From assembly GCF_000758685.1 (NCBI RefSeq), contig NZ_CP009286.1, positions 4,708,501 to 4,772,500 on the forward strand: 64,000 bases of DNA, given 5' to 3'. The DNA comes from Paenibacillus stellifer. Its GTDB lineage: Bacteria; Bacillota; Bacilli; Paenibacillales; Paenibacillaceae. Under the pieces are notes generated by a model. The model had not been told where the DNA came from. It made no database searches and worked only from the letters and a program-made list of their open reading frames with translations. A program made the position numbers and the translations under genes. This document shows, in pieces, positions 54,261-54,920 of the stretch (the stretch's first letter is position 1; every line of letters begins with the position of its first letter).

Positions 54261-54722
54261 TTAAAATCCTAGGTCGCGATAAAATTCCAGGCTTTCAAGC
54301 AGCAGTTCCTCGATGCCGCCTCTGCCGGCCAAGCTTATAATTCCTCTCTTTAGCAGCTTGCTTCTTGGCGAGTCTCCGATCCCCGCACACAGGATAATCC
54401 GGCAGTCGCCCAGCATCTCCGCCGTATCGTCAAAAATCTTCTTCTTGTCATCGGGACTCACACAATCGGTTCGTCCGCTGCAGTATGCTTCCACGCTGCG
54501 TTTCTCCAGAAACTCCGTCTCCTGCCCGGAAACGTTATAGATCCAGAACTCGGTGGCATGACCGAAATGGACATTGACCTTGCCGTCCCCCCGGGTTGCT
54601 ACCGCAATTCGGACACTATTGGACGCGGATGACGATGAGTCGGCTTCGGCGCCGCCTTCATTATTCGGCTTCGTCTCCGTGACCCGTACAGTTGATTCGT
54701 CTACGGCTTCTCTCTCTTCCAC
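54261..54722 (-). CDS. NifX/NifB-C-terminal-type cofactor-binding protein
   Basis: A 153-residue protein. Residues 1-40 are acidic and Ser-rich ([14 protein letters not shown]), and residues ~45-150 form a dinitrogenase FeMo-cofactor-binding domain ([20 protein letters not shown], then [25 protein letters not shown]). The VHFGHA...CSGRTDC pattern is that of the NifX-like tail of NifB, here free-standing without the radical SAM part. Such domains hold NifB-co or related clusters during nitrogenase assembly. GTG 54722 is chosen because GGGAGG lies 7 bases upstream. It is the first gene of an operon with nifH, downstream of a GlnR-type promoter. Confidence 0.88.
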
Positions 54723-54776
54723 CGCAGCACCTCCCTGCCAAAAAGGATTGTGCAAAGAACGTCAGCAGCAACTCAA

Positions 54777-54793
54777 TGTCAGATTATATAACC
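54777..54793. promoter_or_regulatory. GlnR-like box, downstream site
   Basis: TGTCAGATTATATAACC matches the GlnR consensus TGTNA-N7-TNACA with one mismatch. It lies ~35 bases downstream of the predicted transcription start of the nifX-nifH operon, the position of the repressing site in Paenibacillus nif operons. Confidence 0.65.
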
Positions 54794-54825
54794 CAAAAGG
54801 GCATAGGGTTTTACTTATTAGAGCC

Positions 54826-54855
54826 ATCTTAGTCTTCCGCTTCCAAGCCTGTCAA
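54826..54855 (-). promoter_or_regulatory. SigA promoter of the nifX-nifH operon
   Basis: On the minus strand TTGACA (54850-54855) and TAAGAT (54826-54831) are separated by 18 bp. The predicted start is near 54819, about 97 bases before the GTG of the first gene. Confidence 0.7.
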
Positions 54856-54903
54856 TGACACTAAAGCGCATACAGGGCGTATTGACAAATCGTTCAAATT
54901 TCG

Positions 54904-54920
54904 CGTCATATTAACTGACA
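54904..54920. promoter_or_regulatory. GlnR-like box, upstream site
   Basis: CGTCATATTAACTGACA matches TGTNA-N7-TNACA with one mismatch. It lies ~50 bases upstream of the -35 box, the position of the activating site in Paenibacillus nif promoters. Confidence 0.65.

Follow-up and report, generated by a model that had tools for sequence, protein, structure and literature searches.

A probable nifX-like-nifH operon with a candidate GlnR-controlled promoter outside the main nif cluster of Paenibacillus stellifer

Multiple nifH copies have been known in Paenibacillus for years without a clear reason for their presence. Could such a copy, lying away from the other nitrogen fixation genes, be an additional source of the nitrogenase iron protein (Fe protein) that is switched by the nitrogen regulator GlnR? 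The question is raised by a locus in a stretch of 64,000 nucleotides (64 kb) of Paenibacillus stellifer (contig NZ_CP009286.1, positions 4,708,501 to 4,772,500), here called the window, whose own numbering is used throughout. An earlier note on this DNA had proposed an extra, nitrogen-controlled nifH operon at 54261..54920; the boxes, the promoter and the first, nifX-like gene fall within that range, whereas nifH itself (54231-53344) was left out of it. On balance, we consider it probable, with appreciable room for the alternatives weighed below, that the nifX-like gene and nifH constitute a supplementary Fe-protein operon controlled by GlnR, lying apart from the main nif cluster and served by a sigma-70-type promoter. 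Compared genomes and loci carry G and L numbers.

The two-box promoter and its conservation

On the minus strand, the locus reads, in order, TGTCAGTTAATATGACG, TTGACA, an 18-bp spacer, TAAGAT and GGTTATATAATCTGACA, followed by a gene of 153 amino acids and by nifH. The first of the two GlnR-type sequences, box I (54920-54904), is the predicted activation site; it has one mismatch to TGTNA-N7-TNACA and its edge lies 48 bp upstream of the -35 hexamer TTGACA (54855-54850), where the earlier note had placed a box at about 50 bases. The -10 hexamer TAAGAT occupies 54831-54826, and transcription is predicted to start at ~54819. Box II (54793-54777), the predicted repression site, also has one mismatch and begins 32 bp downstream of the -10; it spans ~26 to 42 bases past the predicted start, its centre falling ~35 bases past it, as had been claimed.

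Since the window holds 19 boxes with at most one mismatch, one box alone means little. The promoter hexamers by themselves show no excess either (three found, against a shuffle mean of 2.4). However, among the five TTGACN-N16..19-TANNAT sites of the window, only 54855-54826 is flanked on both sides, defined as a box 40-65 bp before the -35 plus a box 25-40 bp after the -10. In 150 simulated windows, none of the 197 promoter-like sites had both boxes, although the simulations were poorer in boxes than the real window (mean 12.1 versus 19).

The genus survey covered 100 genomes, that of the window included, and the nifX-like locus with the same promoter and boxes was found in 10 of them. Box I has one mismatch in nine of the ten loci and two in G022, and box II is perfect in three and has one mismatch in the remaining seven. 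The -35 is TTGACA or TTGACG, the -10 is TAAGAT or TAATAT and the spacer is 18 bp, each in 10/10, so that the TTGACA-18-TAAGAT promoter described earlier is kept in kind throughout. In the alignment of the ten upstream regions, mean conservation reaches 0.9875 at the eight consensus positions of box I and 0.69 at its other nine; for box II, the values are 0.95 and 0.72, and far upstream sequence reaches 0.60. It is this conservation in 10/10 orthologous promoters that we regard as the decisive evidence for the predicted boxes. That they are chance matches beside a constitutive start is very improbable: boxes with at most one mismatch are indeed common, but a fixed spacing and base-specific conservation in 10/10 species speak against it, as does the lack of any two-box site among those simulated.

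The first gene has the ribosome-binding site GGGAGG (54730-54735, minus strand). A ribosome-binding site precedes the same start in all ten loci, and for this reason GTG 54722 was taken as the start of the first gene and TTG 54755 was rejected. A small open reading frame with a good ribosome-binding site, starting from ATG 54921 next to box I, was considered as another cause of the conservation and was dropped, its second codon being a stop in G072 and G049. No Rfam family was found in 53200-55300, and the folding of the leader is nothing unusual (z -0.12).

The genes of the operon and the likeness of the two nifH copies

The first gene (54722-54261, minus strand, GTG start, PF02579) had been called a NifX-domain gene, and this has to be corrected. 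The best family of its product is TIGR01290 (nifB), matched at positions 318-434 of 441 (E 4.6e-31); it falls below the NifB cut-off (108 bits versus 343.65), having no radical-SAM part, and also below that of NifX, TIGR02663 (42.6 bits versus 112). Judged by these family matches, the product is a free-standing NifB C-terminal domain and not NifX. It corresponds in type to the genes named nifX-like in PMC8287671, which are free-standing, nearer to the NifB C-terminus than to NifX, and linked to nifH; we keep that name here.

The gene for the supplementary Fe protein, nifH (295 amino acids, ATG start, minus strand), starts 29 bases after the end of the nifX-like gene. Its product passes TIGR01287 (447.4 bits, cut-off 394.35) and equals the main NifH apart from residue 2 and the tail. 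Upstream, a predicted intrinsic terminator of a GGDEF gene lies at 55082-55114 (minus strand; hairpin of -17.4 kcal/mol, z -3.63, then a U run) and is predicted to insulate the promoter of the operon. Another predicted terminator follows nifH at 53238-53291 (minus strand; -26.7 kcal/mol, z -6.16), with a hairpin on either strand. Neither was reported by a simple consensus scan. Because these predicted terminators end the GGDEF gene and follow nifH, the nifX-like gene and nifH look like an isolated operon, and the two would be co-transcribed.

The genome (5,658,798 bp, a single contig) contains a full main cluster, nifB-H-D-K-E-N-X-orf1-hesA-nifV (L017), and also an anf cluster (L018) that includes a nifB, nifE, nifN and nifX of its own; in both, nifH and nifB were named by family and the remaining genes from order and sequence. 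Other nif genes, whose absence the earlier note had named as refuting its reading, are thus present in the genome, and its placing of this nifH outside the nif cluster holds. There is a single glnR (L111), located upstream of glnA and preceded by a perfect GlnR box, TGTTAGGAATACTCACA; the next best match to it in the genome has 27% identity, and the nearest PDB relatives of its product are GlnR chains (E 1.8e-33). Two further NifH-family genes (L019, L020) occur among transporter-like and nitrogenase-component-like open reading frames, and they resemble nitrogenase-like genes reported in P. sabinae. In the list of boxes, no near-consensus GlnR pair at the spacing of the window promoter accompanies either of them. 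Further nifH genes are also found in G045, G072 and G049 (L103-L105), with 88-89% protein and ~80% DNA identity to the NifH of the window.

The composition of the operon allows for another function, namely that it serves mainly in cofactor maturation, with NifH and the NifB C-terminal domain acting at the assembly of the iron-molybdenum cofactor (FeMo-co) on NifEN, and NifH not being used as catalytic Fe protein. A role of NifH in FeMo-co maturation is established. Furthermore, nifH comes after the nifX-like gene in every locus whose contig extends far enough: it was found in 8/10 loci (with a gap in P. sinensis), is truncated at the contig end in G099, and is not reached in G022, whose contig stops earlier. 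Three relatives also have paralogues of nifE and nifN immediately upstream. The neighbours of the operon in the window are, however, the GGDEF gene and a glycosidase-like gene and not nifE/N, and NifX-like proteins failed to replace NifB in P. polymyxa (PMC8287671). Since near identity to the catalytic NifH fits either catalysis or maturation, it does not separate the two. We regard maturation as an unlikely main function, though one to be taken seriously, and it would be compatible with GlnR control.

The main nifH and that of the operon differ at 12 sites within their first 863 bases and are identical over 710 bases (53429-54138, minus strand; bases 93-802 from the ATG), and in 200,000 random placements of 12 differences no identical run of 710 bases arose. 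Outside the gene, identity between the two nifH loci collapses. The 710 bases are likely a gene-conversion tract, and conversion with the main nifH would keep the copies alike. Across the tract, each of the two copies differs at 23 sites from the main nifH of P. sinensis and at 38 from its extra nifH, which weakly suggests the main copy as donor, the extra copy of P. sinensis being on a long branch and gapped. In this latter copy (L026:2334), ~30 codons are missing beside a single N; a true deletion of ~30 residues was considered and rejected, the adjacent N making an assembly gap probable.

For the nifH genes that follow nifX-like genes, hereafter the spare nifH genes, a single clade is rejected in the nifH tree (p-AU 5.4e-6), from which G099 was left out for its partial nifH and G022 for a contig without nifH. 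The spare copy of the window pairs with that of P. sinensis (96/96) inside a group with the main copies of both, and the spare copy of P. sabinae pairs with its own main copy (98/92). The nifX-like protein is only ~45-50% identical to the NifB C-terminus. The promoter and the nifX-like gene thus look old, and nifH appears to have been homogenised, if only in some members of the clade.

The same gene type has been described in P. sabinae T27 (PMC8287671; G049), where a gene for the NifB C-terminal domain also precedes nifH off the main cluster, behind the same promoter and boxes; there, nifE and nifN paralogues are found upstream, whereas the window has the GGDEF gene behind its predicted terminator. 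That GGDEF gene (55188-56295) lacks a sensor start, and its first part is overlapped out of frame by a short membrane-type open reading frame (56056-56295), which gives the impression of a broken or shortened gene. No description of GlnR boxes on the P. sabinae nifX-like promoter was found in the part of PMC8287671 available.

Box spacing, a second element and the alternative nitrogenases

The earlier note had equated the geometry of this promoter with that of the main nif operons. The main nif promoter of P. polymyxa WLY78 and P. sabinae T27 (PMC6191146, PMC9894248) does resemble that of the window in its sigma-70 type and in having an upstream and a downstream GlnR site of the TGTNA-N7-TNACA type, but the spacing differs. 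Given as box I edge to -35, spacer, and -10 to box II (in bp), it is 48/18/31-32 in 10/10 spare nifH promoters, whereas in main nif promoters box I lies 59 bp before the -35 and the spacer is 17 in 24/24, with box II 30-33 bp after the -10. The latter values derive from 31 nifB upstream stretches, 24 of them main-class with enough upstream sequence (box I with at most one mismatch in 23 and two in L038); L039 and L048, which have the promoter without its upstream part, L044 and L050, which end short of the promoter, and L068, L070 and L072, which are second nifB1-nifH copies lacking boxes, were set aside. As the window promoter lacks the main-class spacing (59/17/30-33), it was filed as a variant and not as a copy. 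There is likewise no support for its being a copy of the main nif promoter that can still be recognised: a profile of the ten sequences, searched by nhmmer against the 31 nifB stretches, gave weak matches at best, whose inspected alignments fall mostly on the boxes, and the reversed-sequence control gave one match (E 5.3).

From box I to the -10, the distance is 76 bp in main nif and 66 bp in spare nifH promoters, a difference of 10 bp or about one helical turn. This bears on the possibility that GlnR binds both boxes but solely represses, with no activation from 48 bp and a near-consensus promoter active by default. The -35 is a perfect TTGACA here and TTGACG in the main nif promoters measured, and box I lies nearer to it than where activation was shown, as repression alone would allow. 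Conversely, the change of 10 bp keeps the helical phase, box I is better conserved than box II, and the same 48 bp recur in eight further promoters (see below). We consider repression alone to be quite improbable.

GlnR activation from box I, which we prefer to repression alone, would also be in line with the spacing found at alternative nitrogenase genes. In the 100 genomes, 15 anfH/vnfH loci were identified, three of which we labelled vnf on 81% identity to the AnfH of the window genome. In genomes with a spare nifH locus, the anfH/vnfH promoters have the spacing 48/18/31 in 8/8 (L113-L117, L125-L127; L018:9906-10048), as in the window, although they drive alternative nitrogenases, and it is these, not the main nif operons, that share the geometry of the window promoter. 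Their box II has at most one mismatch in six cases and two in the other two (G054, G072), and several of their -35 hexamers are weak (TTGTCC, TTGTCG, TTGATG). At the anfH loci outside the clade (G008, G009, G048, G055, G056, G074, G075), the module was found in 0/7, though each has at least one near-consensus box. The species in this comparison are related and the cases are not independent. The pattern is suggestive of GlnR control of anf and vnf in this clade. At the anfH promoter of the P. stellifer genome (L113), the boxes lie 245 and 119 bp ahead of the start. The nifB2 promoter of the anf cluster (L018:5107-5269) is also set between two near-consensus GlnR boxes, with 49 bp from box I to the -35, a spacer of 17 and 51 bp from the -10 to box II; its 66 bp from box I to the -10 fit the box I rule, whereas the box II rule is not followed.

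In a 2024 review, GlnR is stated as not involved in P. sonchi anf (PMC10789242), which fits the module-less anf promoter of G048, whose identity as P. sonchi is a guess, but differs from what is seen in the window's clade. What is new here is the strict box spacing common to spare nifH and close relatives' alternative nitrogenase promoters. No description of GlnR boxes on either promoter type was found in the literature searched, which included few subscription papers, so that their absence is weak evidence.

Between box I and the -35, two elements accompany the boxes: GAACGATTTGTCAA (54882-54895, minus strand), identical in 10/10 orthologues, and GTATGCGCTT (54864-54873, minus strand), which occurs together with it. 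The pair is found once per genome in 9/100 genus genomes, against 0 for the reversed-pattern control. A conserved stretch starts at the sixth base past box I in all three promoter classes: the main promoters of the clade (eight) have TTTGACGAAA.TG there, the clade anf/vnf promoters (eight) TTTGAA, and the spare promoters TTTGAACG, CTTGAACG or TTCGAACG, followed by ATTTGTCAA. In main nif promoters outside the clade, TTTGA is often missing and CGAAACTGCAAAC mostly kept; indeed, most of the main nif promoters inspected, that of L017 among them, conserve CGAAACTGCAAAC just after box I, ahead of the -35. A common origin of this second element across the classes is a lead suggested by these alignments, not a result. 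To our knowledge, no factor is known for the second element or for CGAAACTGCAAAC. No link of CueR or Fnr to nif in Paenibacillus was seen in the literature searched. The invariant 14-mer GAACGATTTGTCAA was also tried and rejected as a regulon-wide motif: it matches exactly in 33/394 family genomes, 10 of them at this locus, and the other 23 compare with 12 genomes (by our count) in the reversed control, with no regulon found.

Taken together, one might tentatively propose, as an idea that falls somewhat short of likely, that in this clade a single GlnR module runs the main nif, the spare nifH and the V- and Fe-nitrogenase genes, consisting of box I, the second element (TTTGAC.., TTTGAA.. or TTGAACGATTTGTCAA), the promoter and box II, the distance from box I to the -10 being either 76 or 66 bp, one DNA turn apart. 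If so, GlnR would activate from a fixed helix face with an unknown second factor beside it, and the alternative nitrogenases of the clade would answer directly to GlnR, unlike what is reported for P. sonchi.

Proposed nitrogen control of the operon and its meaning

The working that we propose follows the main nif operons. In P. polymyxa, site I activates and site II, bound together with feedback-inhibited glutamine synthetase, represses (PMC6191146), and the same roles of the two sites are reported for P. sabinae (PMC9894248). By this analogy, when nitrogen is short, GlnR bound to box I would activate transcription of nifX-like-nifH; with plentiful glutamine, GlnR held on box II by feedback-inhibited glutamine synthetase would block it. 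The operon would in this way supply extra nitrogenase iron protein under nitrogen control. As for the nifX-like protein, it may carry a cofactor precursor, which is the least certain part of the proposal.

Loci of this type, and expression data on those of three relatives, have already been published; the data are mixed, and nitrogen control may hence vary from one part of the clade to another. PMC8287671 reports induction of the P. sabinae T27 nifX-like gene under N2-fixing conditions and suggests that it shares a promoter with nifH, and according to an earlier report that the authors of PMC4246453 cite as their own, a Klebsiella nifH mutant is restored by each of the three nifH genes of P. 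sabinae.

Several observations weigh against our preferred interpretation, that of a GlnR-controlled supplementary operon. In P. forsythiae T98 and P. zanthoxyli JH29, PMC8287671 reports no upregulation of the gldA-linked nifX-like gene under N2-fixing conditions. In our data set, a gldA (glycerol dehydrogenase) gene lies in divergent orientation to the nifX-like gene in three genomes, G022, G099 and G019 (L080, L081, L079), the family being confirmed on the G022 and G019 copies; G022 also has anf and G099 vnf. Because gldA adjoins their nifX-like genes, G022 and G099 were matched to the two published loci, and very likely they are these. This is direct evidence against nitrogen induction in the gldA-linked subclade, where the boxes are nevertheless present (one mismatch in each box of G099, two in box I of G022). 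The second nifB1-nifH copies of three relatives (L068, L070, L072) have no GlnR box, box I of the spare promoters is 11 bp nearer to the -35 than in promoters with demonstrated activation, and no homology to the main nif promoter is detectable beyond the boxes (best E 0.014). Moreover, conservation extends over the entire interval that separates box I and the -35 (0.87 in the ten upstream regions), so there may be selection on something besides GlnR.

The non-induced loci lend themselves to a further explanation, in which the copy is weakly expressed or unresponsive to nitrogen, its boxes either serve some other purpose or are on the way to losing their function, and its nifH is alike by recombination. 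Besides the two loci matched by gldA, the 710-base conversion tract is in its favour, as identity alone is then no proof of use. On the other side, none of the promoter, boxes, ribosome-binding site and nifX-like gene falls within the tract, yet all are conserved in ten species, and the orthologue reported as induced, that of P. sabinae, has hexamers of the window's type. The loci of P. forsythiae and P. zanthoxyli share the nifX-like gene and promoter with the window but differ from it in the -35 TTGACG and the gldA neighbour; the hexamers of the window (TTGACA, TAAGAT) are nearer to the P. sabinae type, which softens the evidence of non-induction and does not remove it. An unresponsive copy appears to us unlikely, more so than a maturation operon. 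The earlier reading of a nitrogen-controlled extra Fe-protein source is partly supported: in its favour are the main nif and anf clusters, the single glnR, the conserved boxes, the near-identical NifH and the induction reported in P. sabinae, and against it are the different geometry and the lack of induction reported in P. forsythiae and P. zanthoxyli.

The three relatives with box-less nifB1-nifH copies (G054, G018, G019) have there a TTGACA-17-TAAGAT promoter with no GlnR box nearby, and this third nifH may escape GlnR control. In P. azotofixans (P. durus), Choo et al. reportedly described in 2003 a nifB2H2 pair, a nifB-like gene beside a second nifH. G019, which is likely P. durus, holds both a nifX-like-nifH locus and a box-less, full nifB1-nifH pair, and that description may concern either of them.

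For the multiple nifH copies of Paenibacillus, the conserved two-box promoter and the signs that the copies are kept alike argue for the use of a second Fe-protein supply. The published conflict between P. sabinae and P. forsythiae/P. zanthoxyli makes this locus a good natural comparison, and the two strict geometry classes offer a straightforward criterion by which operons activated by GlnR can be recognised, and allow the way in which this MerR-type regulator activates to be tested directly. The nitrogen regulation of alternative nitrogenases has been called elusive (PMC10789242); if anf and vnf are under the same control in this clade, it would become testable, with a bearing on the engineering of ammonium-tolerant nitrogen fixation.
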